Shown here: piece by piece, positions 1 through 25,179 of the stretch | How the letters are laid out: every line of letters starts with the position of its first letter | Position numbering within the stretch: position 1 is the stretch's first letter | Virus record (IMG/VR): IMGVR_UViG_3300044952_001586 | Span: 1 to 26,918 of that record | Length of the DNA stretch: 26,918 bases | Source of the DNA: a virus | Strand: one strand, 5' to 3' | Translations under genes and position numbers: made by a program | The notes under the pieces: model-generated | The model's database searches: none | Seen by the model: only the letters and a program-made list of their open reading frames with translations | What the model was told of the DNA's origin: nothing

Positions 1-1926
1 GCGCCGCGCGGGTTTCGGGATTCCAGAAACACCGAGGCCACCGCTGGGGGTGGCCTCGATAGGGAATTCGGTTTCAGTCGTTTGTGGATCCGGGGGCGAC
101 AGCCCCATCTGCCGCTCCAGTTCACGCCAATGGCGTTCCTCGAAGCGGTCCAGCCCAGCGGCAGCAGCTGCGGCCCGGGCATAGACGTAGCAGTCCAGGG
201 CCTCATTGCGCTCGCGGGTCTTCTGCCACTCCCGCACAGGGAAGCCGTTGCGGTTGCGGCGGGTGATCAATTGTTCGGCGCAGAGTTGCTGAATGAACTC
301 GGCGTCCACCTTCGGCAGATGAACGAAACCCGCAGGAAAGATGACCGTGACGTCGTCCTCGTCCACCTCGGCGGCTTTGCGCAGGGCGTTGTAGAACTCC
401 AACTTGGCGATGCCCACCGCCACCGAGTAGACCTTGATACCCCGGCGCAGCTTCTTGCCGGCCTGGGTAACGTCTACCGCTGTTGGCGTGCCGATCAGAG
501 CCGCGCCTCGCGGCACACCCTTCACCGCCATCAGCCGGTGGTCCTTCGCCGTGCGCACGAAGGCGTAGGCCTCCTGGGTGGCGAAGCCGGTATCCAGGGC
601 GATACGGGCCAGCGGCATCTGTGCGCCCGAGGCATGGGTCCAGGATTCGGTCAGTATCTGGGCCAACTGACGCCAGACCGTGTCCCGCGCGGTGTCGCCC
701 ATCAGCACTCGGTGCTCGATGAGCCACGCTTCCTTGCCGCGCCCGAAGGCCCAGATCGAGGCTTCGATGCGATCCTTCTGTACGTCGGCGCCGCCTACCA
801 GCAGCAGGCCGCCGGAGGGAATGCTGCCGATGCGGTAATCCTCGCGCCGCTCCAGTAACCGCTGCCAGTCCGGCGCCTCGCCTTCCTCGATCCAGGTCTC
901 GCCCAGTTCCGTATTCTTGAAGGTCTTGATGGCCGAAGCCGATCCGGATTCCTTGTTTACGGAGGATTCCCAGGCGGCGGCGATGTCGCGCCAGAAGCGC
1001 CAGCCGATCGGGCTGTAGAGCGACGACAGGTGGAAGCCTGCGGTTTTGCTATTGCTGGCAGCCATTGCCCGCCACTCGCCCGCCGCCAGCATTGCGGTCT
1101 TGTGATGTTCGGCAATGGCGGTGTCGCAGGTTTCGCAGACGTAGGCCGCCGTCTCGGGATGTTTCTTGTCCCAGCGCAGTTGCTCGAAGCGCAGCCACTG
1201 GCGGTGGCCGCAGTGCGGACAGGGCACGAAGTAGCGGCGCTGGTCGGACGCCTCGTATTCGCGTTCGATCGCTGACACCCCGGCGATGGTCGGGGTGGAT
1301 ACGATGAAGATCTTGCGCCGCGCGAAGGTGCGGGTGCGGGCTTCGGCCAGCGAAATCGCGTCACCCTCACCATCGACGTCTAGGGGATATCCGTCCACCT
1401 CGTCGAGGAAGAGATAGCGCACCGGCATGCTTCGCAATCCGACGGCGCTGTTCGCTCCGGTCATCACCAGCACGCCGCCCCTAAATTCCTTGGCCAGGAT
1501 GGTGTTGCCCGAGTCGCGGCTGCGGGCCGGCGAAATCAGTTCCTTCAACGTGGGCGACTCATCGATCAGCGGGTCGATGCGCTGCTTCGAGTTGCGCTTG
1601 GCCATCTCCACTGTGGGCGACACCGCCATCATCGGGCCGGGCGCGTGGTGGATCACGTAGCCGATCCAGTTGTTGCCGCATTCCGTTTTGCCCAGTTGGC
1701 CGCCGGCCATGAACACGATGCGCTCGATGGGCGACGTCGGCGACAAGCAGTCCATGATCTCCTTGAGATACGGCGTGCGGCTGGTCCGCCATCGCCCGGG
1801 TTCCGAGGAAGATTTGCTGGACAGCACCCGGTGCCGGTCGGCCCATTCCGACAGGGTCAGCATCGGGTCGGGGGTCAGCCCCTCGCGCCAGGCGCGTTCG
1901 ATCTCGATGCCGCCTTCGTAATCCAT
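1..1926 (-). CDS. phage terminase large subunit, GpA family (3' end cut by window edge)
   Basis: This is the ATP-driven DNA-packaging motor and headful/cos nuclease. I translated the minus strand from ATG at 1926 and it stays open for 642 codons to base 1, so the C-terminus lies outside the window. The ATPase part shows a terminase-type Walker A (GGQLGKTE, about residues 75-82) and a Walker B (LFLDEVD, about 172-178). A CPHC...CETC cysteine pair follows at roughly 230-265, and the nuclease half contains the segment GGADVQKDRIE. GpA-family proteins are usually about 600-700 aa, so little is missing. Its ATG overlaps the small-subunit stop by one base (TGATG), so the two are translationally coupled. 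Long plus-strand ORFs here are antisense shadows. Confidence 0.93.
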   Translation of the reverse strand, partial: MDYEGGIEIERAWREGLTPDPMLTLSEWADRHRVLSSKSSSEPGRWRTSRTPYLKEIMDCLSPTSPIERIVFMAGGQLGKTECGNNWIGYVIHHAPGPMMAVSPTVEMAKRNSKQRIDPLIDESPTLKELISPARSRDSGNTILAKEFRGGVLVMTGANSAVGLRSMPVRYLFLDEVDGYPLDVDGEGDAISLAEARTRTFARRKIFIVSTPTIAGVSAIEREYEASDQRRYFVPCPHCGHRQWLRFEQLRWDKKHPETAAYVCETCDTAIAEHHKTAMLAAGEWRAMAASNSKTAGFHLSSLYSPIGWRFWRDIAAAWESSVNKESGSASAIKTFKNTELGETWIEEGEAPDWQRLLERREDYRIGSIPSGGLLLVGGADVQKDRIEASIWAFGRGKEAWLIEHRVLMGDTARDTVWRQLAQILTESWTHASGAQMPLARIALDTGFATQEAYAFVRTAKDHRLMAVKGVPRGAALIGTPTAVDVTQAGKKLRRGIKVYSVAVGIAKLEFYNALRKAAEVDEDDVTVIFPAGFVHLPKVDAEFIQQLCAEQLITRRNRNGFPVREWQKTRERNEALDCYVYARAAAAAAGLDRFEERHWRELERQMGLSPPDPQTTETEFPIEATPSGGLGVSGIPKPARR

Positions 1927-2462
1927 CAATCCACCTTGGGGCGCAATTCGCCCAATTCCATCAGGTGCGTGCGCACCGCCGCGTCCAGGGCGATGTGCAG
2001 GGCATGGGCATCCATGCCGAGGGTGGCCGCCATCTGCGCCGACACCCGTGCCGGCCAGTTGAGCCAGGCGTCGCGTTCATTGCGCGCCAACTGGAAGACA
2101 TGGGCGATGGCCTGGGAACGGTCGACCAGATCGCCCTTGAGCCGGGCCAGGCGCACCTTGTTGGTCTGCGCCTTGACCACTTCGTTGACCGTGCGAGCCT
2201 GCAGCAGCGAGGTGCCGCCGGTGCCCAGACTGGGGGTTTGCGGCTCGGCCTGGGCCGGCGCTTCCTTGACAGTGATGGTCTCGGCCCGGCGCTGGGTGCC
2301 CTGTGCCGGGGCCTCGGTGTTCTTGTTCCACTCCCGATCGACCTTGTCCGGATCCAGCGTGCCATCCGCCTCGGGCGTGATGCGGCCAGCGCGAATTGCC
2401 TTGTGTACGGCGGTGTCGGACACCCCCCGATGGCGGGCGTAAGCGCGAATCGAGAGACCCAT
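1926..2462 (-). CDS. phage terminase small subunit (Nu1-like)
   Basis: This 178-aa protein sits directly upstream of, and overlaps, the large terminase, the normal place for the DNA-recognition subunit. Residues 1-45 look like a DNA-binding helix-turn-helix (SIRAYARHRGVSDTAVHKAI followed by a short wing), as in lambda Nu1. A proline/alanine/glutamine-rich linker (about 50-85) leads to a helical C-terminal half containing NEVVKAQTNKVRLARL, a typical oligomerisation region. It should recognise the packaging site and recruit the large subunit. The assignment rests on position and the HTH-linker-helix layout; individual sequences in this family are poorly conserved. The start at 2462 faces the plus-strand gene block, so 2463-2566 must serve both directions. 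Confidence 0.85.
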   Translation of the reverse strand: MGLSIRAYARHRGVSDTAVHKAIRAGRITPEADGTLDPDKVDREWNKNTEAPAQGTQRRAETITVKEAPAQAEPQTPSLGTGGTSLLQARTVNEVVKAQTNKVRLARLKGDLVDRSQAIAHVFQLARNERDAWLNWPARVSAQMAATLGMDAHALHIALDAAVRTHLMELGELRPKVD

Positions 2463-2493
2463 GGAATCCAGCTAAAAATTGATGGTTTTGTTC

Positions 2494-2532
2494 GAGATAA
2501 AGCTTGGCTTGTCTCTGGCACAGCGCGTTCAT
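2494..2532 (+). promoter_or_regulatory. leader motif copy 1 (hairpin plus 30-nt conserved block)
   Basis: The conserved block is 2503-2532: CTTGGCTT, ten variable bases, then CAGCGCGTTCAT. An upstream arm (GAGATAA-AGC, 2494-2503) pairs with GCTTGTCTC (2507-2515) around a TTG loop with one bulged A and one G-T pair. The block ends 34 nt before the start codon at 2567. Six further copies occur in the window. Confidence 0.8.
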
Positions 2533-2566
2533 GACCACACCATCAACCACGTCCACGGAGACGACC

Positions 2567-2833
2567 ATGACCACGCAAACCCCCGAAAAACGCCAGGAAC
2601 TGATCGACGAACTGCGCGAGATCCAGGTGCAGATGCTCGAGTGCATGGAGCAGGCCAAGACCCTGATCAAGCAAAGCGGCCTGGAGATGACCCTGCAACG
2701 TGCCGAGTCCTACTGGCTTGCCCACGCCAAGATGGCCCTGACCAACGACCACGGCTACCTGGGCGGCTCGATGTGCTCGATGGAAGACACCATCGCGGAA
2801 ATCGAAGCGGCCACCGAGGACGACGAGGACTGA
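2567..2833 (+). CDS. small acidic hypothetical protein
   Basis: An 88-aa protein of unknown function and the first of the small plus-strand genes. The start at ATG 2567 is chosen because GGAG lies just upstream and the protein then begins MTTQTPEKRQ; the frame is also open further up, but that would translate the leader motif. The N-terminal half (EKRQELIDELREIQVQMLECMEQAK) is strongly helical and could be a coiled coil. The C-terminus is very acidic (EIEAATEDDED). No catalytic motif or membrane segment is visible. Small acidic phage proteins can mimic DNA or bind host proteins, but nothing specific supports that here. It has its own leader (copy 1), and copy 2 begins nine bases after its stop. 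Confidence 0.75.
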   Translation: MTTQTPEKRQELIDELREIQVQMLECMEQAKTLIKQSGLEMTLQRAESYWLAHAKMALTNDHGYLGGSMCSMEDTIAEIEAATEDDED

Positions 2834-2841
2834 TCGAGATC

Positions 2842-2889
2842 AGGAAGCCTGGCGAAACGCTTGGCTTCCTGCTTGAACAGCGCGTTCAT
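2842..2889 (+). promoter_or_regulatory. leader motif copy 2 (hairpin plus 30-nt conserved block)
   Basis: AGGAAGCC (2842-2849) pairs perfectly with GGCTTCCT (2863-2870); the loop contains a further GCG/CGC pairing. The conserved block is 2860-2889 and ends 35 nt before the start codon at 2925. No T-run follows, so it does not look like an intrinsic terminator. Confidence 0.82.
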
Positions 2890-2924
2890 CACATCACCAT
2901 CAACGACGTCACAAGGACACGACC

Positions 2925-3146
2925 ATGACCACGACCATGACCCAGATCGACACCATTTACGCCCTGATCGCCCAGAAGCACCTGCGCATCGAAACCCTGG
3001 AAACCCGCCATTCGGATCGCCTCGATTTCCACGACGTGGCGGTCTGGAGTGTCCGCGACGCCCTGGAAGCCGCGTTTAAAGCGGGCGTCGAAGTCGGCAT
3101 GAACGTGTCGCGGCCCTCCGAGCAGGAAATCGCCAGCGCCGACTGA
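2925..3146 (+). CDS. DUF6900-like small protein
   Basis: A 73-aa protein beginning MTTTMTQIDTIYALIAQKH. The stretch containing ETLETRHSDRLDFHDVAVWSVRDAL, read as LETR, SDRLDFHDV and AVW-VRDALEAAFKAG, matches what I recall of DUF6900, a short domain found on phages and integrative elements with no known function. The ATG at 2925 is preceded by AAGGA. It has its own leader copy and leader copy 3 starts ten bases after its stop, so it appears to be a single-gene unit. The family name comes from memory of the sequence pattern and is less certain than the reality of the gene. Confidence 0.75.
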   Translation: MTTTMTQIDTIYALIAQKHLRIETLETRHSDRLDFHDVAVWSVRDALEAAFKAGVEVGMNVSRPSEQEIASAD

Positions 3147-3155
3147 ATACAGATC

Positions 3156-3204
3156 GAAGCCCAAGCGCGAAACGCTTGGCTTCACCTCGGAACAGCGCGT
3201 TCAT
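3156..3204 (+). promoter_or_regulatory. leader motif copy 3 (hairpin plus 30-nt conserved block)
   Basis: This is the strongest hairpin of the set: GAAGC-C-CAAGCG (3156-3167) pairs with CGCTTG-GCTTC (3173-3183), 11 base pairs with one bulged C. The conserved block is 3175-3204, ending 31 nt before the start at 3236. Confidence 0.83.
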
Positions 3205-3235
3205 GACATCACCATCAACCAGCAAGGAGCACGAC

Positions 3236-3754
3236 ATGACCACCATCAAACTGACCGAATCCCAAACCACCATCCTGACCCAGGCCGCCTACCGTCCTGA
3301 TGGCGACATCGAACCCCTGCCGCCCACCCTGCGGGGTGGTGCGCGGGCCAAAGTAATCGGCGGACTCACCACGCGCGGACTGATCGTCGAGCAAGACGGC
3401 AAGCACGTCCTTACCGACGACGGCTACACCGCCATCGGCCGCAGCCGCCCGGCCCATAATCCGGAACCGACTGAGGACGCCGCCTTGGAGGCCGATGTCG
3501 CCGCCGCCGAAGCGACCTGGCAGGACACGGCCAAGGAGACCAAGCCCCGCACCCGCGAGAACAGCAAGCAGGCACAAGTGGTTGCAATGCTGAAACGCGC
3601 CGAAGGGGCGACGATTCCCCAGGTTATGGCCGCCACGGGCTGGCAGGCGCACACGGTGCGCGGCACCTTTGCCGGGGCCTTCAAGAAGAAGCTGGGCCTG
3701 AACCTGATCTCGGAGAAGACCCAGGGCGGCGAGCGGGTCTATCGCGTAGGTTGA
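3236..3754 (+). CDS. DUF3489 domain protein
   Basis: A 172-aa protein. The C-terminal 60-70 residues (TRENSKQAQVVAMLKR, then GATIPQVMAATGWQAHTVRG and FAGAFKKKLGLNL) are typical of DUF3489, a winged-helix-like domain common on proteobacterial phages and integrative elements, often near DUF2924 and serine recombinases as here. The N-terminal half (residues 1-75: LTESQTTILTQAAYRPDGDI and so on) resembles a second small winged helix. It is therefore probably a DNA-binding regulator, but the target is unknown. ATG 3236 has AAGGAG upstream. It is followed after 15 bases by the next gene without a leader copy between, so the two share the leader at 3156-3204. Confidence 0.88.
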   Translation: MTTIKLTESQTTILTQAAYRPDGDIEPLPPTLRGGARAKVIGGLTTRGLIVEQDGKHVLTDDGYTAIGRSRPAHNPEPTEDAALEADVAAAEATWQDTAKETKPRTRENSKQAQVVAMLKRAEGATIPQVMAATGWQAHTVRGTFAGAFKKKLGLNLISEKTQGGERVYRVG

Positions 3755-3769
3755 ACGGGAGTCACGATC

Positions 3770-4006
3770 ATGCCGAATCTCATCCAAATCATGGAATCGC
3801 TTCGCGAGCAGCCGCGCCCGCTCAACGCCGAGGAGGACGCTTATCTGAACACCCTCATGGTTGAAGTTGCGGGCGCCGAGAACGATGCCCAGCGCTGGCG
3901 CATCCTTGAACGCGAAGGCATGAACCGCATCAACATCGAAGCCTACGGGTTTGACGCCGATGTTCTGGCCCATGTCTTTAAATTGCGCCGGGCTTCAATG
4001 AATTGA
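3770..4006 (+). CDS. hypothetical protein, second gene of DUF3489 unit
   Basis: A 78-aa protein of unknown function, MPNLIQIMESLREQPRPL at the start and VLAHVFKLRRASMN at the end. It starts 15 bases after the DUF3489 gene with GGGAG upstream of ATG 3770. It is mostly helical by eye, with no metal ligands, no signal peptide and no membrane segment. Its stop codon (4004-4006) lies inside the hairpin of leader copy 4, so translation to the end of this gene would open that hairpin. No family is recognised. Confidence 0.7.
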   Translation: MPNLIQIMESLREQPRPLNAEEDAYLNTLMVEVAGAENDAQRWRILEREGMNRINIEAYGFDADVLAHVFKLRRASMN

Positions 4007-4040
4007 AAAGCTTGGCTTCTCAATCACACAGCGCGTTCAT
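4002..4040 (+). promoter_or_regulatory. leader motif copy 4 (hairpin plus 30-nt conserved block)
   Basis: ATTGAAAAGC (4002-4011) pairs with GCTTCTCAAT (4015-4024) around a TTG loop with one A-C mismatch. The conserved block is 4011-4040 and ends 33 nt before the start at 4074. The upstream arm overlaps the last codon and stop of the preceding gene. Confidence 0.8.
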
Positions 4041-4073
4041 GGGGGCGTCATCCACGTCCCCAGGAGCCATCAG

Positions 4074-4214
4074 ATGGACTTCCACCTTTACAAAGCCACC
4101 CGCGCCGACGGCACGGTGTACTTCTTCCACCACCGCAGCATGGAGGAGGCCAAGGTCTTCGCCAGCGATGCGGTCAAGGTCATCGATTGCCATAGCCCGG
4201 AGGTCGCGCAATGA
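4074..4214 (+). CDS. 46-aa hypothetical protein
   Basis: A small gene found by reading on from leader copy 4: ATG at 4074, with GGAG upstream (4061-4065 region), encodes MDFHLYKATRADGTVYFFHH and ends EVAQ at TGA 4212-4214. Its stop overlaps the next start (ATGA), which supports translation. The protein looks like a compact beta-rich domain (KATRADGTVYFFH) followed by a helix (SMEEAKVFASDAV). No family recognised. It would be missed by a simple length cut-off. Confidence 0.7.
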   Translation: MDFHLYKATRADGTVYFFHHRSMEEAKVFASDAVKVIDCHSPEVAQ

Positions 4215-4468
4215 ACAGCATCGACATCCTGGGGCAAAGACTCGGTACCGCCGCCCTGACTACCCTGGTGCGCCTGTGCCCGGAGATCAGGATAGCCAGC
4301 CCGGCGCGACAGGAGGCCGCGTGTGCCGCGATGCGCGCCAAGTCCAAGGAAGCCATCGACGAGTTGCTGGACGACGCCAAGGCCGTGCCCTGGCTGGCGG
4401 AGGTGGCCTTTGCCAGCGCGGTGCTGACCCTCGCCAACGAGGGGGTCAGGGTGTTGAGGGGTGGCTGA
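4211..4468 (+). CDS. hypothetical helical protein
   Basis: An 85-aa protein whose ATG overlaps the stop of the 46-aa gene (ATGA at 4211-4214), so the two form a coupled pair behind one leader. It is rich in alanine, leucine and charged residues (ARQEAACAAMRAKSKEAIDE) and probably all-helical. The stretch AEVAFASAVLTLA is mildly hydrophobic but too short and too interrupted to call a membrane helix. No known family or function is recognised. Confidence 0.7.
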   Translation: MNSIDILGQRLGTAALTTLVRLCPEIRIASPARQEAACAAMRAKSKEAIDELLDDAKAVPWLAEVAFASAVLTLANEGVRVLRGG

Positions 4469-4488
4469 GTAGAACTCCGGGAAAGCGG

Positions 4489-4527
4489 GTGAATGCGCTT
4501 GGCTTATCAAGCTCACAGCGCGTTCAT
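4489..4527 (+). promoter_or_regulatory. leader motif copy 5 (hairpin plus 30-nt conserved block)
   Basis: GTGA (4489-4492) pairs with TCAC (4513-4516), and GCTTG (4497-4501) pairs with CAAGC (4508-4512). The pairing register differs from copies 2 and 3, but the variable segment is again complementary to what precedes it. The conserved block is 4498-4527, ending 40 nt before the start at 4568. Confidence 0.78.
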
Positions 4528-4567
4528 ACGGATGTCGATTACCCCCCAACGCACCAGGAGAACCGCC

Positions 4568-4927
4568 ATGACGACCATGACCATCAGCATCGAACGCACC
4601 CCTCGCACCTTGAACTTCGGCGGCACCGCCATCGAGGTCGAGGAGTTGGGCGTCCGACTGCCATTTGCCCGCAAACCTGTCGACCTCAGCGAGGTGGGCG
4701 GCAACGGACAAACCAGGGTTTACATCACAGAGACCAAGGAAGTGACCCCGGCCGAATTCGATACCTTTGCCCGCAGCCTGCTGGTCTCGCGCGAGTGGCT
4801 GCGCGGCAAAGGCGGTGGCACGGGCGACGGCTACCTCTGCGTGGAGGTCACCGCGCCGGGCCGCCCCTACCTTTACGTCAACCCGGAGGGCAGCGATTAC
4901 GCCCGCTACGTGGCACGCCTTGGTTGA
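4568..4927 (+). CDS. hypothetical protein
   Basis: A 119-aa protein, MTTMTISIERTPRTLNFGG at the start. ATG 4568 is chosen for the AGGAG (4556-4560) in front; an in-frame upstream start would translate the leader. The sequence alternates strands and turns: AIEVEELGVRLPF, QTRVYITETKEVTPAEFDTF, GYLCVEVTAPGRPYLYVN. It is probably a beta-rich globular domain. No cysteine cluster, nuclease or methylase motif is visible and no family is recognised. It forms a single-gene unit, with leader copy 6 starting nine bases after its stop. Confidence 0.72.
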   Translation: MTTMTISIERTPRTLNFGGTAIEVEELGVRLPFARKPVDLSEVGGNGQTRVYITETKEVTPAEFDTFARSLLVSREWLRGKGGGTGDGYLCVEVTAPGRPYLYVNPEGSDYARYVARLG

Positions 4928-4935
4928 TCGAGAAA

Positions 4936-4988
4936 GATTGAAAATGAAGCCTGAATTGCTTGGCTTCTCAATCGCACAGCGCGTTCAT
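4936..4988 (+). promoter_or_regulatory. leader motif copy 6 (hairpin plus 30-nt conserved block)
   Basis: GATTGA (4936-4941) pairs with TCAATC (4968-4973), and GAAGCC (4946-4951) pairs with GGCTTC (4962-4967), leaving an AAAT bulge on the left and a ten-base loop. The conserved block is 4959-4988 and ends 36 nt before the start at 5025. Its variable segment resembles that of copy 4. Confidence 0.82.
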
Positions 4989-5024
4989 ATGGGTGTCGCA
5001 ACCAACACCCCGCAGGAGAAAACG

Positions 5025-5393
5025 ATGACCACCACCAACCACACCCCCTCCACCCAGAACGACGCCTGGGGCTTTTTTGGCACCATGAACGAACACGCCA
5101 ACGTCGCCTGGCCGATCGCGATGCGCGCGATTTCCGAAGCCACCGGCCAGTCGCTGGAAACGGTCCGAATCTTTATGGACAGCCGCTACGGACGCCATTT
5201 TGCCGACAGCGTACTCAACCAGATGCACAACGGCGCAAATCTGGATGCCGCCATCGCCGCCGCCACGCAAGAGTGGATGGGCTGGACGATCGGTCGCATC
5301 ACCAGCAAGGAATACGGGATCCCGCGCGGACTGCCTTACCTGACCGGGTTTGTGATTCACACCGAGATCACCGACGAAGCACTCGCCGCCTGA
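5025..5393 (+). CDS. hypothetical protein, last gene of the plus-strand block
   Basis: A 122-aa protein starting MTTTNHTPSTQNDAWGFFG, with AGGAG just upstream of ATG 5025. It is rich in aromatic residues (WGFFGTM, NVAWPIAM, EWMGWTIGRI). The middle part (AISEATGQSLETVRIFMDSR) is helical. No catalytic motif or membrane segment is clear and no family is recognised. Its last 37 bases (5357-5393) overlap the 3' end of the convergent methyltransferase gene, so the two transcripts would be complementary there. Confidence 0.72.
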   Translation: MTTTNHTPSTQNDAWGFFGTMNEHANVAWPIAMRAISEATGQSLETVRIFMDSRYGRHFADSVLNQMHNGANLDAAIAAATQEWMGWTIGRITSKEYGIPRGLPYLTGFVIHTEITDEALAA

Positions 5394-6637
5394 CCAGACG
5401 CGGCATCAAAGGCCACCCCGTCCGACTGGCGGGTGGCCTGGCAACCGGCAAACTCCTGCCAGCGGCGAACAATAACGTCGCAATACTTCGGATCGAGTTC
5501 AATCACGCGTGCATGCCGGCCCGACTTCTCGGCCGCGATCATCGTCGTACCGGATCCACCGAAGGCATCCATCACCACGTCCCCTGGGCGGCTTGAGTTG
5601 CGGATCGCCCGCTCCACAAGCTCCACCGGCTTCATGGTCGGGTGCAGGTCGTTCTTGTGCGGTTTCTTGATCTGCCAGACGTCGCCCTGGTCGCGGTCGC
5701 CGCACCAATGGCGCTTGCCGCCCTCCGGCCAGCCATACAAGATCGGCTCGAACTGGCGCTGGTAATCGGCGTGGCCCAGAGTGAATGTGTTCTTGGCCCA
5801 GATGATGAAGGTGGACCACTTGCCCCCGGCGGCGCGGAAGGCGGATTGCAGGGTGTCGAGTTCGGAGGATGACATGGCGATGTAAACCGCGCCCCGGCAG
5901 TGCGCCAACGTTGGCGTCAGCGCCGCCAGCAGAAAATCGTAGAAGCCATCACCGAGGTTGTCGTTCAGGATCGCCCGATCCTTGCCACGCTGCCTGTCCT
6001 TGGCCGTGTTGGCGTAGTTGACGTTGTAGGGCGGGTCGGTAAAAGCCATGTCAGCCCGCTCGTCGACCAGCAGTGCCTCATAGCAATTGGCATCGGTGGC
6101 GTCGCCACAGAGCACGCGGTGGTCGCCACAGATCCAGATGTCGCCCGGACGCGATACAACCGGTCCGAAGGATTCCGGAACTGCATCCTCGTCGGTCTGC
6201 CCCTCGGTCGTGGATTCCTCACCGGCCAACAAATCGGCCAGCGCGTCAGCGTCGAAACCAGTGAGCGACAGGTCGAAGTTATCGTCTTGGAGTGCGGCCA
6301 GTTCCACCTGGAGCATAGCTTCGTCCCAACCAGCGTTCTCGGCGATACGGTTGTCCGCGATCACCAGGGCGCGGCGCTGGGTGGGGGTGAGATGGTCGAG
6401 CACCACTACCGGAACAGTCGGGATGCCGAGTTTCTGGGCGGCGGCGAGCCGACCATGACCCGCCACGATCACGCCGTCGCTCCCGGCGAGGATGGGATTC
6501 GTAAAGCCAAATTCAGCAATGGACGCGGCGATCTGCGCGACCTGGGCATCGTTATGTGTTCTGGCGTTTCTTGCATACGGCAGCAGTTTGCCGGTGGGCC
6601 ACTGCTCGATCTTGTCGGCGAGCCAGGAGATGCTCAT
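5357..6637 (-). CDS. ParB-domain / DNA methyltransferase fusion (DPPY type)
   Basis: A 426-aa protein. Residues 15-110 form a ParB/Sulfiredoxin-like N-terminal domain (NPILAGSDGVIVAGHGRLAAA). The C-terminal half is a beta-class amino-methyltransferase: catalytic DPPYNV at 201-206 comes before the SAM-binding FGGSGTT at 359-365, with the target-recognition part between. DPPY is usual for N6-adenine or N4-cytosine methylation. Such fusions are common on phages and usually act as solitary methylases that protect DNA from restriction or regulate packaging; no restriction partner is next to it. ATG 6637 overlaps the upstream gene's stop (ATGA). The C-terminal tail after about residue 395 is low in complexity. 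Confidence 0.92.
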   Translation of the reverse strand: MSISWLADKIEQWPTGKLLPYARNARTHNDAQVAQIAASIAEFGFTNPILAGSDGVIVAGHGRLAAAQKLGIPTVPVVVLDHLTPTQRRALVIADNRIAENAGWDEAMLQVELAALQDDNFDLSLTGFDADALADLLAGEESTTEGQTDEDAVPESFGPVVSRPGDIWICGDHRVLCGDATDANCYEALLVDERADMAFTDPPYNVNYANTAKDRQRGKDRAILNDNLGDGFYDFLLAALTPTLAHCRGAVYIAMSSSELDTLQSAFRAAGGKWSTFIIWAKNTFTLGHADYQRQFEPILYGWPEGGKRHWCGDRDQGDVWQIKKPHKNDLHPTMKPVELVERAIRNSSRPGDVVMDAFGGSGTTMIAAEKSGRHARVIELDPKYCDVIVRRWQEFAGCQATRQSDGVAFDAASGQAASASSVISV

Positions 6638-17998: not shown

Positions 17999-18955
17999 TT
18001 ACCTCCTCACTAGGGTTGCGAATTCAGGTTTCAGCCAGTAGTGACCCTTCTGGTCTGCCTCGGCGAAGACCTCGAAGATCAGCCGGTGACGTTTGATGAT
18101 GTCGGCAAGACGGAACTTCTCTGGTTCGATACCCAGCCGCTCGGCCAGATGGCGTTTATGTACTTCATCGCCGTCAAACTCTTCCAGCACCGTGAGAAGT
18201 CCATGAAGTTGCGGCGGAACTTTGTGTTCCAGCCCCTCGATGAGCGCGACCCGTTTGCTGTGCAGCAGGCGCAACGAGGTTTCCCTCGTATTGACAGTCG
18301 GCACCATCCCGGTGAGGTAGGCATCCAGGTTCTCGACGACCAGCCCCGCCTTCCTGAGATGCGCCACTGCGCGCAGGGGCACGGTCAACCGGTCTCCGAG
18401 TACCGTTTTCGTCAAGGCCACAGGATCGCTGGAGGTGATGATGACCTCGGCGCCCGGCGCGACCTGTCTGTCGAGTTCATCGCGCACTATCGCCGCCGAC
18501 GGCACCAGGTGCCGCCCAAAAAACAGAGTAAGCCGCCTGCGCCTGTATTCGGCTTCGCCCAGACGCCAGAGAACATCCGGCACGACGGCATCGGGTGGGC
18601 TACGTGACGTCAGGTGCAATGCACTTGCCAGCCAACCGGCAATTTTGGCCGAATGGGCAAGCCAGAGACGGGCCTGATCGGGCCGCAAGCGGATCCAGCC
18701 ACAATCCGGGCAATAGCCCCGGTACGGGAAGGCGCCCCTGTCGTCATCGGTGTTCGCGTTGGGCTCGATGACCGGGCCGCAGCAGTCCGGACAGACGATG
18801 CCGGCGGTCAGGTCGTTCGACAGGGACAATGCGCCCACCTCGCGCAGATGACGGTACACGTCCATTCTGTCACCCCGCCAGATGGCATCCGGCTCCAGGC
18901 GAGGGTCAGGCTGTTCGAGCAGCCAGCACAGTTCAGTGAATGCCTGATCTCTCAC
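17999..18955 (-). CDS. unknown zinc-ribbon protein, partner of the upstream gene
   Basis: A 318-aa protein starting at GTG 18955, whose GTGA overlaps the upstream stop by four bases. Cysteines at 55, 58, 82 and 85 (CPDC and CPDCGW) form a likely zinc ribbon after a helical N-terminus. The middle (AHLRKAGLVVENLDAYLTGMV) and the end (HKRHLAERLGIEPEKFRLAD, then RHRLIFEVFAEADQKGHYWL) resemble winged-helix modules. It therefore looks like a multidomain nucleic-acid-binding protein. I do not recognise the family. It is encoded with, and probably works with, the 418-aa protein upstream. Confidence 0.8.
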   Translation of the reverse strand: MRDQAFTELCWLLEQPDPRLEPDAIWRGDRMDVYRHLREVGALSLSNDLTAGIVCPDCCGPVIEPNANTDDDRGAFPYRGYCPDCGWIRLRPDQARLWLAHSAKIAGWLASALHLTSRSPPDAVVPDVLWRLGEAEYRRRRLTLFFGRHLVPSAAIVRDELDRQVAPGAEVIITSSDPVALTKTVLGDRLTVPLRAVAHLRKAGLVVENLDAYLTGMVPTVNTRETSLRLLHSKRVALIEGLEHKVPPQLHGLLTVLEEFDGDEVHKRHLAERLGIEPEKFRLADIIKRHRLIFEVFAEADQKGHYWLKPEFATLVRR

Positions 18956-20208
18956 GCAGGCATTTCCAAGGACAGATCAGTCGAGGCAGGCGTGCCAGCG
19001 CTGCTTGCCGGGGTCTGCATCACCCCCCACGCCTGCAACAGTGCCTCGACCAGCTGGGCATCTGCTTCGTCCATGTCGCGCAGATTGCTGATTCCTGCCT
19101 GCTTGATCTCGATATGCAGCACTCGGCCTGATTTGTCACCATCCCTTGGCAGGAAATACAACGAGACAACCGCTTCCAGGATATTGAAACCCTGACTCAT
19201 CAGGACATGGTCAAGCCGCTGTGCCTTCACGCAGTCGAGGACGTCGGGTGCGTTCTTTTGGCCGGGCGGCTTGATGATGTGGTCACAGTGTGGTGGCAGG
19301 TTGGCATGAAGCCTGGCTTGGGAGAGCCGGATTTTTTCGACACCATGTGCAGCCAGGTCGATCTGACTGTCATCGAACAGCTCGAAGCCATCGCGTAAGC
19401 GATTGAGAAAGAACATCGGCGCGTCGATGTTTTCGACCTGCAAAGGTTTCTGGAAGATGTGCTTACCCAGGAGAGGCAATAACTTTTTCAGGGTTTTCTC
19501 GCCCCCAGACGCGAGGATGTCCATCACACCGGTTGCCGGGTAGATGACGGCATCCATCTTCATGGGGGGCCTGATGTCCCGCCAGCGTGCGCGATCGTCA
19601 TCTCCGAATTCCAGCTGGCGCTGGACGTTGTCCTCAATGAGCAGTGCCAGCTGCACGCCACCGTCGAGATGGCGGTCGACAGGTTCGATCTCGCAGGCGC
19701 GGGGCCGGCCTTTTCGAGGTGTGAATGCCTCGCCTACCGCCAGCTCAAGTGCCCGAATGTCCTCGGTACTACGAAACAGTACATCGCACGGTGGGAACTT
19801 GAATCGTTTCCACCCGCGTATGCCGGTGCGCAAGTTGGCGTCGAGGATGGCCGCAGCAGCTTTGAACAACTCAGGCCAGTTGGCCATAGTCCACAAGGCA
19901 CGCTCGGCATCACATGAAAGCTTGGTGAAATCGTCGTGCAACGCCGCGTCTGGCTTGGCGACATTGCGAATGGCATCAATGCCGCGCCGGTTGGCAAAGG
20001 CATGAACCTGTCGCAACTCACCAAGGACCATTCTGGTCAGACTCGCGTCGAGTGATTCCGTGATCGCGATCAGGGATTTTGTCAGTTTGTCCGCTGGCAC
20101 GCCCCAGTCATGACCGTCGGGAAGCGCGATCGCACGTGACTGGAAGTAGTACTGCCAGGAACGGCCTGGCACCTGATGGATCAAACGGCGGTAGTTGAAG
20201 GCGGCCAT
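18952..20208 (-). CDS. unknown 418-aa protein
   Basis: ATG 20208 follows AAGGA and starts MAAFNYRRLIHQVPGRSWQY. The protein has no membrane segment, signal peptide or recognisable Walker motif. It has many charged/aromatic stretches: PPCDVLFRSTEDIRALELAV, HLDGGVQLALLIEDNVQRQL, FFLNRLRDGFELFDDSQIDL. The segment ALLIEDN...DAVIYPATGVMDIL could hold acidic active-site residues but fits no motif I know, and VLHIEIKQ has an E-x-K that hints at, without proving, a nuclease. It is the first gene of a two-gene unit divergent from XRE/ImmA, behind a consensus TTGACA. Longer starts further up are unlikely because they would cross the promoter region. Confidence 0.8.
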   Translation of the reverse strand: MAAFNYRRLIHQVPGRSWQYYFQSRAIALPDGHDWGVPADKLTKSLIAITESLDASLTRMVLGELRQVHAFANRRGIDAIRNVAKPDAALHDDFTKLSCDAERALWTMANWPELFKAAAAILDANLRTGIRGWKRFKFPPCDVLFRSTEDIRALELAVGEAFTPRKGRPRACEIEPVDRHLDGGVQLALLIEDNVQRQLEFGDDDRARWRDIRPPMKMDAVIYPATGVMDILASGGEKTLKKLLPLLGKHIFQKPLQVENIDAPMFFLNRLRDGFELFDDSQIDLAAHGVEKIRLSQARLHANLPPHCDHIIKPPGQKNAPDVLDCVKAQRLDHVLMSQGFNILEAVVSLYFLPRDGDKSGRVLHIEIKQAGISNLRDMDEADAQLVEALLQAWGVMQTPASSAGTPASTDLSLEMPA

Positions 20209-20313
20209 CTTGGTGTTCCTTTTCGAGATAGGCCACAGTCCATCCGACATTCGTCCGGTGTGCGTGAGGCCGGGTTGCGTCAAAGCACCCTTTAGTGGCG
20301 CATATAAACAAAT

Positions 20314-20330
20314 ATATTCGTTCGCTATAT
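20314..20330. promoter_or_regulatory. candidate operator 1 in the divergent control region
   Basis: ATATTCGTTCGCTATAT is an imperfect palindrome sharing the core TTCGTTCG with the site at 20383-20396. It lies just downstream of the minus-strand promoter at 20345-20373. The next gene is an XRE-type regulator, which makes it a likely binding site. Confidence 0.55.
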
Positions 20331-20344
20331 CGGGTGTTTGCGGC

Positions 20345-20373
20345 AAGTTAACAGCCGATGATTGTCTTGTCAA
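20345..20373 (-). promoter_or_regulatory. sigma-70-like promoter for the two unknown genes
   Basis: On the minus strand TTGACA (20373-20368) is followed after exactly 17 bases by TAACTT (20350-20345). The -35 is a perfect match and the -10 is weak. Candidate regulator sites lie on both sides. Transcription would start near 20338, leaving a leader of about 130 bases before ATG 20208. Confidence 0.5.
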
Positions 20374-20382
20374 GTCGGTGCT

Positions 20383-20396
20383 ATTTCGTTCGGAAT
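20383..20396. promoter_or_regulatory. candidate operator 2 in the divergent control region
   Basis: ATTTCGTTCGGAAT is nearly palindromic (its reverse complement is ATTCCGAACGAAAT) and shares TTCGTTCG with the site at 20314-20330. It lies 76 bp before the XRE start. The region 20209-20471 is AT-rich compared with its surroundings and holds no convincing ORF. Confidence 0.55.
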
Positions 20397-20471
20397 AATG
20401 TATGTTTCCACCAGTGAAAAACCTTTGCAGCCACTGCAAATCCGGTACATAGAGGAAATCAGGAGAAACCT

Positions 20472-20798
20472 GTGGCAACCCCATTGGGCGAGAAAATCCG
20501 CAAGCTGCGTCGCGACAAGAAGTTGAGTCTGGAGGCCCTCGCGGCCGCAGCGGAAATGAGCAAGAGTTACTTGTGGGAGTTGGAGAACAACGACGACGCC
20601 AACCCCACCATGGACAAAGTGTCACGCATCGCTGCCGTACTTGAAGTCACACCGGAGTTCCTGGCTCATGACAAGCAGGCCGATACGCCCCAGGATGCGT
20701 TCGACAAGGCATTCTTCAGGAACTACAAATCCCTCAGGCCTGAAACCAAGCAGCAACTGCTAGAAATTCTCAAAACTCTCAAGAAGACGCAAGGATGA
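20472..20798 (+). CDS. XRE-family transcriptional regulator
   Basis: A 108-aa protein starting at GTG 20472, with AGGAG six bases upstream. Residues 4-66 form the classic XRE helix-turn-helix (LGEKIRKLRRDKKLSLEALA, then MSKSYLWELENN and PTMDKVSRIAAVL). The C-terminal 40 residues are a helix for dimerisation. It probably represses its own operon and the divergent pair through the TTCGTTCG sites. Its stop overlaps the peptidase start (ATGA), the usual pairing in ImmR/ImmA-type switches where the peptidase removes the repressor. Confidence 0.92.
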   Translation: MATPLGEKIRKLRRDKKLSLEALAAAAEMSKSYLWELENNDDANPTMDKVSRIAAVLEVTPEFLAHDKQADTPQDAFDKAFFRNYKSLRPETKQQLLEILKTLKKTQG

Positions 20799-21754
20799 CG
20801 GCAGCTGATCTCGGCCCGATCCCTTGGGCAAATCGGCTTAATCGTCTGCTGGATCAGTACCATGGTATCCATGGCGGCCTGCGATATCCGGTCGACGTCG
20901 AATTTCTTGCTCAGCAGATCCCACAGCAGTTCAACACGGGTGAACCGATTCTGGTTCGGGGTGAAGAAATCAGCCCGGACTTCGAGGGCTGCCTGCTCAA
21001 GCTGGACGACGAGACAGGTGGACCACCCTCCTGGGCGTTGATCTACAACAAGGGACTTCCTTCGCCTGGTCGTATCCGCTTCACCCTGGCACACGAGTTA
21101 GGGCACTACCTCTGCCATCGACAACTGCAAGAGGGCTTCAATTGCAATGAATTCGATACCCTGCACTGGGAATCGCCAGAGCGCCAGCTGGAGGTGCAGG
21201 CCAACAAGTTCGCTGCCTATCTGTTGATGCCGCGCCCGGACTTCGAAGCACAAATCCGTTCTGCCCCGGTTGATCTCGAAATTCTGGGGGCTTGCGCTGA
21301 ACGATATGGCGTATCGCTCACCGCTACCGTGCTGAAATGGCTGGAATTCACCCCAATGCGTGCCCTGTTGGTGATGTCGCGCGATGGGCGCGTGCAATGG
21401 GCGCGCGGCAGCGAATCGGGCAAATGGCTGGCTATTGCAATGAATAAGCGGCTACCAACCGGGCAGCGAAGGTCATTGCCGGCGCAGTCCACCACCATGC
21501 TGAATACAACGAGCAACGTTGATCGGCAAGGTACGGAAGGCTCTGCACGAATCTGGTTCGCAGACGAGCCCGAGGACATGTCCCTTCGTGAGATGAAGAT
21601 CGTCTCGGATCAATACCGGCAGACCATGACCCTGCTGGTCCTGCCGCCGGAGGTTAAGCCATGGGAGCGCGACAAACGCGATGGGGACGATGACGAAGAA
21701 CTGGAAAACACCTTCGATCATTTCGTTCGCAACGGCCAGCCACCCGTGCGATAA
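20795..21754 (+). CDS. ImmA/IrrE family metallo-endopeptidase
   Basis: A 319-aa protein with the zinc-protease motif HELGH at 100-104 and the likely third ligand Glu about 133 in the following helix (LEVQANKFAAYLLMP). Domain layout is the N-terminal ImmA/IrrE fold (1-170), then a C-terminal region (about 185-319) with an acidic patch DGDDDEELEN. Members cleave the adjacent XRE repressor after damage or another signal, switching the element on. ATG 20795 overlaps the XRE stop. The C-terminal extension is longer than in minimal ImmA and may be a sensor. Confidence 0.92.
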   Translation: MTAADLGPIPWANRLNRLLDQYHGIHGGLRYPVDVEFLAQQIPQQFNTGEPILVRGEEISPDFEGCLLKLDDETGGPPSWALIYNKGLPSPGRIRFTLAHELGHYLCHRQLQEGFNCNEFDTLHWESPERQLEVQANKFAAYLLMPRPDFEAQIRSAPVDLEILGACAERYGVSLTATVLKWLEFTPMRALLVMSRDGRVQWARGSESGKWLAIAMNKRLPTGQRRSLPAQSTTMLNTTSNVDRQGTEGSARIWFADEPEDMSLREMKIVSDQYRQTMTLLVLPPEVKPWERDKRDGDDDEELENTFDHFVRNGQPPVR

Positions 21755-21771: not shown

Positions 21772-22986
21772 ATGAGCAAGTACAAGTGGCAGTTCGCACC
21801 GCGCTTTCGCCGCCATGCCTTTGGCTGGCGTTCAGATACGCCCATCCAGCGTATCAAGGAAGCTCTCACGGAGATCAAGCAGATCGCCCGGAAAGAGCCT
21901 GTCACCGCCGCAGAGGGTGCGGTGACCTTGCTGGAAAAGCTATCGCCTGCCCTGGAGCAGGTCGATAGCTCGTCTGGATCCTTGGGCTCGGCGGTGAACC
22001 GGGCCATCGATACGCTGGTGCCGATCATCGCCAATGCTGAGGTTGATCAGCGCGTTCGGCAGCGCTGGCTGGAGCGTCTGTGGAACGCCGTTCAGGAAGA
22101 TGCCATCCCCTACATCGAGGTTCTCGGCGACTACTGGGGCGAACTGTGCGTGACCACAGAACTGGCGTCAGCCTGGGCCGATGAGTTGTTGCCATTGGTG
22201 AAGCATGTCTGGAGCCCACAAGCGTCTGGGCATGGCTTCTTCAAGGGGACGACCGCCTGTCTGGCCTCCCTGTATGCCGCCGGTCGTCACGATGAATTGC
22301 TGGCGCTGATAGAGAAAGCGCCCTTCAAGTGGTGGCATGACCGGCGTTGGGGGGTGAAGGCGTTGGCCGCCATGGGCAAGAAAGCCGAAGCCATCCGCTA
22401 TGCGGAGGAATCGCGCGGACGCAACGATCCGTCCTGGCAGATTGCGCAGGCCTGTGAAGAGATCCTGCTGTCGTCCGGCCTGCTCGACGAGGCCTACCGT
22501 CGATATGCACTGGAAGCCAATCAAGGCACGACGAACCTGGCTACATTTCGCGCCATCACCAAGAAGTATCCGAACAAACCGCCGGAGGAAATCCTGCGCG
22601 ACTTGATCGCCAGCACGCCCGGCGCCGAAGGCAAATGGTTCGCCGCTGCCAAGGATGCCGGCCAGTTTAATGTAGCCATTGAGCTGATCACGCGTAGCCC
22701 GACTGATCCCCGCACGCTGACCCGCGCCGCCAGGGATTTTGCTACAGAGCGGCCAGACTTCGCCGTTGCCTCCGGGTTGGCTGCCTTGAGCTGGATTTCA
22801 CAAGGTGCTGGCTTCGACATTACGGGCGCGGATGTACTCGCTGCATACACCGCCGTGATGCAGGCAGCTTCCGGAGCCGGAGTCGATGCTCTGCATATCA
22901 AGGCGCAGATCCGCGAGATGACATCCGGCTCGCACCCTGGAAACCAGTTCATGAATTCGATCCTGGCACATCATCTGTCGACCTGA
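21772..22986 (+). CDS. hypothetical helical-repeat protein
   Basis: A 404-aa protein starting MSKYKWQFAPRFRRHAFGWR, 17 bases after the peptidase stop, with a weak ribosome site. The body is almost all helical with TPR/HEAT-like repeats (HDELLALIEKAP, GVKALAAMGKKAEAIRYAEES, LLDEAYRRYALEANQG). No enzymatic motif is visible. It is probably a scaffold or sensor encoded in one operon with XRE and ImmA. I have seen no defined family for it and give no function. Confidence 0.8.
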   Translation: MSKYKWQFAPRFRRHAFGWRSDTPIQRIKEALTEIKQIARKEPVTAAEGAVTLLEKLSPALEQVDSSSGSLGSAVNRAIDTLVPIIANAEVDQRVRQRWLERLWNAVQEDAIPYIEVLGDYWGELCVTTELASAWADELLPLVKHVWSPQASGHGFFKGTTACLASLYAAGRHDELLALIEKAPFKWWHDRRWGVKALAAMGKKAEAIRYAEESRGRNDPSWQIAQACEEILLSSGLLDEAYRRYALEANQGTTNLATFRAITKKYPNKPPEEILRDLIASTPGAEGKWFAAAKDAGQFNVAIELITRSPTDPRTLTRAARDFATERPDFAVASGLAALSWISQGAGFDITGADVLAAYTAVMQAASGAGVDALHIKAQIREMTSGSHPGNQFMNSILAHHLST

Positions 22987-23111: not shown

Positions 23112-23330
23112 ATGCATGACATCAACCATCTACCCCCCGAGCGGATGACCCCGCAGCAGCGTCGGCACGAGATCGCGTCGTTGCTGGCCAGAGCACTCGT
23201 GCGCCTTCGCTGCGGGAAGCCTCGGCAGTCCGCAAACATGGCTGCGGAGAACGAGTTTGACCTTGGCTTCACTGGTAACCAGCGCGTTCATTCAGACCCC
23301 GTCAACAATAGAAAAACGGAGCCAAGATGA
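23112..23330 (+). CDS. small protein of the DUF2924/recombinase cassette
   Basis: A 72-aa protein starting MHDINHLPPERMTPQQRRHE, after CAGGAGCGATACCG. The segment RRHEIASLLARALVRLR is the conserved helix I recall from small proteins encoded next to DUF2924 and serine recombinases in proteobacteria. Its C-terminal part (DLGFTGNQRVHSD) is encoded by leader motif copy 7. Its last bases overlap the DUF2924 start (23327). The function is unknown; co-location suggests a helper in recombination or regulation. Confidence 0.75.
   Translation: MHDINHLPPERMTPQQRRHEIASLLARALVRLRCGKPRQSANMAAENEFDLGFTGNQRVHSDPVNNRKTEPR
23262..23291 (+). promoter_or_regulatory. leader motif copy 7 (inside coding sequence)
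   Basis: The 30-nt block matches the other six at all 20 constant positions (CTTGGCTT and CAGCGCGTTCAT). It lies inside the 72-aa gene and ends 35 nt before the DUF2924 start at 23327. It lacks the long upstream complementary arm, but its variable segment contains a CTGG/CCAG pair. Confidence 0.75.
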
Positions 23331-23827
23331 GCACGCCCACCAGAATTCCTGCGACACCTCCTTCAATCGTTTCGCAGATCGCCAGATTGCCCGACGTCCC
23401 TATGGCCGACATCCAGGCCCTTTGGCAGAAACTGTTCGGTGCCGATACGCCGAACCACAATCGGCAATTCCTCGAGCGCCGCATTGCCTACCGGTTGCAG
23501 GAGGTGGAGTTCCGCAAGGTGAACGCCAGTCTGCTGGATCGAAACAAGCGCCGAATCGCATCTCTACTGGAGACCGGCAAGATCAAGAAGCGCGATCGTG
23601 ATTACCGGCCCACAGCAGGTACCGCGCTGACCCGTGAATACCAAGGTGTTGCATATCACGTGGTCGCCACCAGCGACGGCCAGTACGAATTCGAAGGCCG
23701 GATGTATCCGAGCCTGTCCATGATCGCGCGTGAGATCACCGGAACCCGGTGGTCAGGGCCACTATTCTTCGGAATCAAAGCCCCTGCCAAACCGAAAGCA
23801 TCGGTCAAGAAGGGAGGCCGGCGATGA
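23327..23827 (+). CDS. DUF2924 protein
   Basis: A 166-aa protein. The pattern SIVSQIARLPDVPMADIQAL, WQKLFGADTPNHNRQFLERR and IAYRLQEVEF, followed by GTALTREYQGVAYHVV and DGQYEFEGRMYPSLSMIARE, is a full-length DUF2924. These proteins are almost always beside a serine recombinase, where they may help the synapse or DNA binding; the role is unproven. ATG 23327 has GGAG upstream. The stop overlaps the recombinase start (ATGA at 23824-23827). Confidence 0.92.
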   Translation: MSTPTRIPATPPSIVSQIARLPDVPMADIQALWQKLFGADTPNHNRQFLERRIAYRLQEVEFRKVNASLLDRNKRRIASLLETGKIKKRDRDYRPTAGTALTREYQGVAYHVVATSDGQYEFEGRMYPSLSMIAREITGTRWSGPLFFGIKAPAKPKASVKKGGRR

Positions 23828-25179
23828 GTGAGGTTCTGAAACGACGCATGCGCTGCGCCGTCTACACCCGCAAGTCCAGCGAGGAAGGGCTGGACCAGGA
23901 ATACAACTCCATCGATGCCCAGCGCGACGCCGGCCATGCCTACATCGCCAGTCAGCGTGCTGAAGGCTGGATTCCGGTGGCGGATGACTACGACGACCCC
24001 GCGTTCTCCGGTGGCAACATGGAGCGACCGGCACTCAGGCGCCTGATGGTCGACATCGAAGCCGGCAAGGTCGACATCGTGGTGGTCTACAAGATCGACC
24101 GTCTGACCCGGAGCCTGGCGGACTTCTCCAAGATGGTGGAGGTGTTTGAACGTTACGGGGTGTCGTTCGTTTCGGTGACCCAGCAGTTCAATACCACGAC
24201 CTCGATGGGGCGGTTGATGCTCAACATCCTGCTGTCCTTCGCCCAGTTCGAGCGGGAGGTCACCGGCGAACGCATCCGCGACAAAATTTCCGCCAGCAAG
24301 CGCAAGGGTATGTGGATGGGTGGCATTCCACCTCTTGGATACGACGTTGAGAATCGACGACTGGTGCTCAATGAGCGAGAGGCCAAGATCATCCGGCACA
24401 TCTTCCAGCGCTTCGTCGAGCTCGGTTCCAGCACAAAACTGGTCAAGGAACTGAAGCTGGACGGTGTGACTTCAAAATCCTGGACCACCCAAGATGGCAA
24501 GATTCGCGAAGGCAAGCCCATCGACAAGAGTCTGATCTACAAACTGCTCAACAACCGGACCTACCTCGGTGAGTTGCGCCACAAGGAATTGTGGTACCCG
24601 GCCGAGCACACATCCATCGTCGAGCGCGATCTTTGGGACAACGTCCATGCGATCCTGTCCAGCAATGGCCGGGTACGAGGCAACGCCACCCGGGCGACAG
24701 TGCCATTTCTGCTCAAGGGCATCGTGTTCGGCCACGACGGACGCGCGTTGTCTCCGTGGCACACCACCAAGAAGAATGGCCGCCGTTACCGGTATTACCT
24801 ACCTCAACGGGATGCCAAGGAGCACGCCGGGGCATCTGGGTTGCCACGTCTGCCGGCCGCAGAACTGGAATCGGCTGTGCTCGACCAACTGCGCGCGATC
24901 TTGCGTGCCCCTGATTTGCTTGGCGACGTGCTGCCGCACGCAATCGAACTCGACCCGACACTCGATGAGGCCCAGATTACCGTGGCCATGACGCGCCTCG
25001 ACGCGGTTTGGGACCAGTTATTCCCAGCCGAGCAGACCCGGATCGTCAAACTCATGGTCGAGAAGGTGATCGTGTCACTCAACGACCTCGAAGTGCGTCT
25101 GCGCGCCAACGGCATCGAACGTCTGGTACTGGAACTGCGTCCTGAGACAGCCGCGCAGGACGAGGAGGCAACAGCATGA
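23824..25179 (+). CDS. large serine recombinase
   Basis: A 451-aa site-specific recombinase. The resolvase catalytic domain (about 8-160) has Ser18 in VYTRKSSEEG, the DRLTRS motif and the FAQFEREVTGERIRDK helix. A recombinase DNA-binding domain follows (about 170-275: IPPLGYDVENRRLVL, then NNRTYLGELRHKE). The zinc-ribbon cysteines normal in large serine integrases are missing: the protein has one cysteine (residue 11), and the expected site reads VFGHDGRALSPWHTTK. It probably integrates and excises the element. It overlaps DUF2924 upstream and the HTH gene downstream by ATGA. Confidence 0.92.
   Translation: MSEVLKRRMRCAVYTRKSSEEGLDQEYNSIDAQRDAGHAYIASQRAEGWIPVADDYDDPAFSGGNMERPALRRLMVDIEAGKVDIVVVYKIDRLTRSLADFSKMVEVFERYGVSFVSVTQQFNTTTSMGRLMLNILLSFAQFEREVTGERIRDKISASKRKGMWMGGIPPLGYDVENRRLVLNEREAKIIRHIFQRFVELGSSTKLVKELKLDGVTSKSWTTQDGKIREGKPIDKSLIYKLLNNRTYLGELRHKELWYPAEHTSIVERDLWDNVHAILSSNGRVRGNATRATVPFLLKGIVFGHDGRALSPWHTTKKNGRRYRYYLPQRDAKEHAGASGLPRLPAAELESAVLDQLRAILRAPDLLGDVLPHAIELDPTLDEAQITVAMTRLDAVWDQLFPAEQTRIVKLMVEKVIVSLNDLEVRLRANGIERLVLELRPETAAQDEEATA

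Follow-up and report, generated by a model that had tools for sequence, protein, structure and literature searches.

The 26.9-kb DNA (26,918 nucleotides [nt]) of IMG/VR virus record IMGVR_UViG_3300044952_001586, hereafter the window, carries seven copies of a 30-nt block, CTTGGCTT-N10-CAGCGCGTTCAT, each placed shortly before a small plus-strand gene or gene unit, and the question raised by this locus is what the block does there. A sequence-only reading of the window had described the copies as ungapped, as identical at their 20 constant positions, and as ending 31–40 nt before a start codon, and all of this was borne out, with the blocks found at their reported places with 0 mismatches and the distance holding for every one of the seven start codons (Table 1), against a chance expectation of 0.02 exact blocks per window in shuffled sequence. 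The same reading took the block for a hairpin leader with a conserved RNA or DNA structure. We consider with good confidence that the block instead represents a phage-specific promoter family; the hairpin found at some copies belongs, in our reading, to the gene upstream.

Geometry of the block and the predicted RNA start

Copies were gathered by a search seeded on the exact block, which makes the left half invariant by construction and somewhat overstates conservation. Among the 531 unique copies recovered across the 273 loci examined, the right half was nearly invariant. The ten-base gap was constant in 239 loci with no real gap variants, low-mismatch matches with other gaps being either absent from these loci or shifted readings of the same copies. 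TTGGCT and GTTCAT occupy the -35 and -10 positions with a spacer of 17 base pairs (bp). GTTCAT was the commonest -10 form (433 copies of AGCGCGTTCAT), followed by GTTACT (60 copies) and by the rarer GTGAAT, GTCAAT, GTACAT, GTTTAT, CTTCAT, and others, and T at -11 and T at -7 were kept in all copies collected. The GTTACT form recurs at copies followed by the leader ACGGGTGTCGCAAC (L263:4395, L270:8612, L278:3068, L282:17814, and L288:18516), a leader of the type carried by the final unit in the small-gene cluster, as though this unit had a promoter strength of its own.

With TTGGCT and GTTCAT taken as -35 and -10 boxes separated by 17 bp, the RNA start is expected 7 nt past the block, and a start-like signal was present at that place. 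When one sequence was counted from each of 94 downstream-gene clusters, the predicted -1 position (index 35) was a pyrimidine in 93 of 94 (p = 3e-33), the predicted +1 position (index 36) was a purine in 73%, and the predicted +2 position (index 37) was a pyrimidine in 90 of 94. A bacterial promoter of sigma-70-type geometry has its two boxes separated by about 17 bp and a pyrimidine-purine (Y-R) start 7 nt past the -10 box, and the block agrees with this pattern in sequence. Past this position lies an A/C-rich leader of 25–35 nt containing a ribosome site, with a median of 35 nt from the block end to the start codon (5–95% range, 26–41). In 69 copies the block lies between the start codon of a divergent terminase gene and a small-gene unit, at a median of 51 bp from that start codon.

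In the mechanism that we propose, CTTGGCTT would hold the -35 box (TTGGCT, from -35 to -30), the 17-bp spacer would take in the ten variable bases, and (C)AGCGCGTTCAT would carry an extended -10 box, with GTTCAT at -12 to -7. RNA would start at the Y-R-Y site 7 nt past the block, giving the short A/C-rich leader with its ribosome site, and each copy would switch on one small gene, one coupled pair, or a DUF2924-recombinase unit. Known promoter types do not account for the block. A sigma-54 promoter was rejected because 15 bases separate the GG from the first constant GC, in agreement with the earlier remark that sigma-54 spacing is missing, GG-N10-GC being absent from the block. A sigma-70 housekeeping promoter (TTGACA/TATAAT-like, A at -11) was also rejected on the basis of the invariant T at -11 and of a scan of window positions 2300–5500 that found no sigma-70-like site. 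One point weighs against the putative promoter: sigma-70 needs an A at -11, which the -10 box of the block does not have, so that an ordinary sigma-70 region 2 should read this box poorly.

The block is widespread outside the window, as the sequence-only reading had proposed to check. Viral contigs contributed at least 120 stretches with exact copies and bacterial genome contigs at least 118, with hosts mainly among the beta- and gammaproteobacteria together with some alphaproteobacterial, Nitrospira, and Geobacter genomes. In whole genomes the exact copies fell into prophage-like clusters, the same pattern read backwards as a control being almost empty, and most host genomes were without copies; a host regulon was rejected on these grounds. 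A literature search for the 12-mer together with the word phage returned no match, and the sole named phage found with the block was Acidithiobacillus phage AcaML1 (JX507079; locus L246), which carries four exact copies. Two of these, at 22244–22273 and 3015–3044, fall within the annotated open reading frames (ORFs) gp33 and gp5, for which reason both the gp33 start and the call of gp5 as a gene are probably wrong; a minus-strand gene missing from the annotation probably begins near 22207. In another phage contig (L039, positions 1743–1818, plus strand), a match to the Pseudomonas small RNA P9 (RF00624, 61.9 bits) lies between two blocks.

Hairpins at the ends of upstream genes

The sequence-only reading had noted that the variable bases are complementary to an upstream arm that changes with them, and this observation stood for a subset of copies. 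Over the collected copies, pairing of the variable bases with the upstream flank dropped when flanks were exchanged between copies (z 4.5 for own over swapped), as did that of CTTGGCTT (z 6.6), while the second half of the block showed no such preference (z -0.6). The effect was confined to copies with the end of a co-directional gene at most 60 nt upstream, where the mean helix score was 17.9 compared to 16.1 ± 0.2 for swapped and 13.5 for shuffled flanks; copies lacking such a gene scored 13.7, compared to 13.3 ± 0.25 and 13.3, respectively. In the window, the region from -32 to +18 folded better than shuffled sequence at copies 2, 3, 4, and 6 (z in Table 1) and not at copies 1, 5, and 7 (z -0.8, -0.7, and +0.15), copy 1 coming after a divergent gene. 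Since the hairpin is enriched only behind a co-directional gene, we assign it to the end of that gene: it is a 3′-end structure of the preceding gene whose own 3′ arm is supplied by the -35 box, and it lies upstream of the predicted RNA start, outside the new transcript. The variable bases would covary with the upstream arm because the -35 box is shared with this hairpin, and at such copies one sequence would serve both as -35 box and as hairpin arm. An intrinsic terminator was rejected for these structures, as the lack of a T-run reported earlier was confirmed and a scan found no terminator-like site at the blocks; given the missing T-run we speak of a 3′-end hairpin, whose function we infer, and not of a terminator.

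An RNA leader, in which the block is transcribed and forms a protein- or RNA-binding element controlling translation of each small unit, is consistent with the position of the block, always upstream of a ribosome site and within a narrow range of distances, and with the covariation in the subset just described. We nevertheless judge it improbable. No consensus fold was obtained over 40 diverse copies (RNAalifold, -0.5 kcal/mol with a covariation term of 0) and mean pairing probabilities did not exceed 0.18, so that the conserved structure claimed earlier was not recovered. The 3′ constant half does not pair preferentially with its own flank, the hairpins show no enrichment at copies that lack a preceding co-directional gene, and, with a hairpin upstream of the predicted RNA start, hairpin and leader would be separate things and the hairpin no defining feature of the family. 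The suggested relation to the radC or STAXI candidate RNAs also failed, with no match to either at E ≤ 10 over positions 2400–5060 and no gathering-level Rfam match in the window; the blocks of 11 motif-rich loci likewise matched no Rfam family. Block spacing is constant, and copies next to a divergent gene leave little space for another promoter, none of which was found in the window. Taken together, the rigid geometry, the start-like signal, the close divergent terminase, and the missing sigma-70-like site favour a promoter and leave little scope for the block itself to be transcribed as a leader element.

Still less probable, in our estimate, is that the block is an operator in DNA, bound by a phage repressor or activator and overlapping or adjoining an ordinary sigma-70 promoter. 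An imperfect dyad, GAAC-N5-GTTC, is present in the 3′ half of the block and the phage encodes several helix-turn-helix (HTH) proteins, as such an operator would have it, but the block as a whole is asymmetrical and the dyad is broken in -10 variants such as GTTACT, often with GAAC kept. Sigma-70-like hexamers were absent at the blocks, and the initiation-like signal keeps a fixed position relative to the block.

DUF6362 as a candidate reader of the -35 box

A candidate to read the putative -35 box is the DUF6362 protein encoded in the replication operon, a role that we favour, if only slightly. Its sequence matched Sigma70_r4_2 at 9e-5 (22.5 bits, below the cut-off of 25.7 bits). In the AlphaFold model (predicted local distance difference test [pLDDT] score of 78, with residues ~21–60 at low confidence), residues 54–126 aligned to sigma region 4 in nearly all of the PDB entries listed, with Z of 6–8, and the closest alignments had a root-mean-square deviation of 1.3–1.9 Å over 56–72 residues. 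These alignments to sigma factors span the C-terminal domain only. Searching the PDB by sequence with the DUF6362 profile brought no significant match, and a literature search found no papers on this family. Reading of the -35 box by DUF6362 would place the small units under delayed control, a timing that is presumed from the operon, while the -10 box might be read by a second phage subunit or by the host RNA polymerase, its region 4 being displaced. No candidate turned up for a sigma-2-like partner; for the small phrog_19772-like gene next to DUF6362, the end of which overlaps the start of DUF6362, modelling gave only a low-confidence two-helix structure (pLDDT 64), uninformative as to a sigma-2 subunit.

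The occurrence of DUF6362 largely follows that of the block. Among virus records selected by the motif, DUF6362 was present in 28/41, and in 17 of the 19 that are at least 30 kb long; conversely, 28 of 29 loci of at least 15 kb selected by DUF6362 carried the motif, with 0 in the reversed-sequence control. In 300 Burkholderiales genomes drawn regardless of motif or DUF6362, apart from the centre genome G042, DUF6362 was associated with at least three near copies of the block (12/21 vs 6/279; Fisher p = 5e-12). Three genomes with a diverged DUF6362 (G278, G291, and G257) have the same -35 box followed by a second half of the form AGAGCGT(T/C/A)(C/A)AT, and no other repeated -35/-10 pair was found in DUF6362 genomes lacking the exact motif.

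Several observations weigh against DUF6362 as the reader. For the sigma-4 match Foldseek returned weak E-values of 0.5 or more, which is why we treat the modelled fold match as suggestive, and alignment Z values of up to 8 are common among small helical domains. DUF6362 also belongs to a conserved phage core whose other genes share its lineage, so that its linkage to the motif could reflect lineage and not function. The motif occurs without DUF6362 in G302, G329, G280, G144, and the records G013 and G030, and DUF6362 occurs without the motif in G091, G136, and G317. AcaML1 shares the core and has the block but has no DUF6362, and gp20, a protein with a C-terminal HTH-like stretch, fills the DUF6362 slot behind the same phrog_19772-like gene. 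No sequence relation between gp20 and DUF6362 was detectable (hhalign probability 1%), and DUF6456 was rejected as a general replacement for DUF6362, its match being weak and limited to AcaML1.

These exceptions bear on a variant of the promoter reading, not an addition to it, in which the same promoter is read by another phage protein or by a host sigma factor, a serious possibility that we place somewhat below an even chance. The promoter of AcaML1 and the several genomes with the motif and no DUF6362 speak for such a reader. A host sigma factor is difficult to reconcile with the confinement of exact copies to prophage-like clusters, and DUF6362 is, among the core genes examined, the one with a sigma-4 match and is present in all core-lineage phages compared except AcaML1, where the HTH-like protein occupies its place. 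G013 and G030 may be mosaics or fragments; their copies precede a small gene near the lysis genes (MSNRF...), and that gene carries the block in the DUF6362 phage G003 too. Rhodobacter phage RcKemmy (MW677517; L383) encodes a distant DUF6362-like protein as the last gene of its rightward early operon, and no shared promoter of the same geometry was found in it. Its intergenic regions 1920–2067 and 25326–25469, one of which precedes the terminase, share direct repeats, AAGCAAGCAT...AAGCAAGCAT.

Known systems and the layout of the window

The family would work like several known systems, yet on present evidence would fit under none of them. At T4 middle promoters (MotA box, MotA/AsiA), a phage factor alters reading by host RNA polymerase near -30/-35 (PMC6024815). 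There, as proposed here, many short phage units are switched on together, while DUF6362 is not a MotA, its model resembling sigma region 4. T4 middle promoters retain the sigma-70 -10 box, unlike the block, whose -10 box is non-canonical and nearly as strictly conserved. T4 late promoters (gp55, gp33) depend, as the block may, on a sigma-like factor of the phage and a -10 sequence particular to it but have no -35 element (PMC6024815), whereas no part of the block is more conserved than its putative -35 box. In Bacillus subtilis, the split sigma factor SigO-RsoA pairs a stand-alone protein of sigma region 4 with a second, partner protein (PMC8103513); the DUF6362 model resembles the former, with no sigma-2-like counterpart found for the latter. 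Repeated motifs upstream of small genes in mobile elements are also known from radC and STAXI, from which the block differs in having no Rfam match even at E 10 and no conserved RNA structure. Late activators of the ArpU/RinA type, too, are phage proteins of small size and sigma-4-like character and switch on later gene units, but their hosts and target sites differ.

The block may belong, as we tentatively suggest, to an undescribed promoter class of proteobacterial temperate phages, in which a stand-alone sigma-region-4 protein and a further reader of the unusual -10 box act on a 30-bp piece that, through a -35 box shared with the 3′-end hairpin of the preceding gene, closes one transcript and opens the next. 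If the promoter reading is right, the block would allow co-regulated units to be predicted from sequence in hundreds of uncharacterised phages and prophages of beta- and gammaproteobacteria and some other groups, would give DUF6362 a testable role, and would join DUF3489, DUF6900, and DUF2924 genes, whose functions are not known, in one regulon. It would also be a small natural example of the same bases serving a hairpin and a promoter, and possibly a portable pair of phage-specific promoter and factor.

Table 1. Putative promoter blocks, upstream hairpins, and related genes in the window (aa, amino acids)
Feature	Position	Strand	Predicted RNA start	Remarks
Terminase small subunit	1926–2462	-		phrog_57, 3e-30; divergent from block 1
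Promoter block 1	2503–2532	+	2539	-35 TTGGCT 2504–2509, -10 GTTCAT 2527–2532; exact motif, geometry, YRY; precedes ORF 2567–2833; 40-bp gap to divergent terminase small subunit
3′-end hairpin of gene upstream of block 2	2841–2871	+		3′ arm is -35 box plus variable bases; fold z -6.1
Promoter block 2	2860–2889	+	2896	precedes DUF6900 ORF 2925–3146
3′-end hairpin of gene upstream of block 3	3156–3183	+		fold z -3.0
Promoter block 3	3175–3204	+	3211	precedes DUF3489 ORF 3236–3754, then ORF 3770–4006
Hairpin at end of gene upstream of block 4	3987–4016	+		fold z -2.6
Promoter block 4	4011–4040	+	4047	precedes ORF 4074–4214 and overlapping ORF 4211–4468 (phrog_36268)
Promoter block 5	4498–4527	+	4534	precedes ORF 4568–4927 (phrog_21303)
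Hairpin at end of gene upstream of block 6	4936–4973	+		fold z -2.2
Promoter block 6	4959–4988	+	4995	precedes ORF 5025–5393 (phrog_8020)
DUF6362 protein, 139 aa	8455–8874	-		PF19889, 6e-40; sigma region 4-like; candidate -35 reader
Small conserved gene, 71 aa	8867–9082	-		phrog_19772-like; end overlaps DUF6362 start
Promoter block 7	23262–23291	+	23298	precedes DUF2924 ORF 23327–23827 and serine recombinase 23749–25179

Other genes of the window encode a ParB-type methylase, a helicase, a PD-(D/E)XK nuclease, and an AAA-domain primase-like protein, in addition to the DUF2924 protein and the serine recombinase. Two adjacent, overlapping minus-strand genes at 17999–18955 and 18952–20625 (318 and 557 aa) had no convincing Pfam match and no PADLOC match, and their homologs were found only in G144 and G007 among the 16 phages compared. 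On the plus strand, the regulatory module consists of an XRE-type HTH gene (20472–20798) that overlaps a gene for a CapP-like M78 (IrrE) peptidase (20795–21754; capP model, 1.7e-66), and this pair looks like a CapH/CapP-type DNA-damage switch used as a prophage control.

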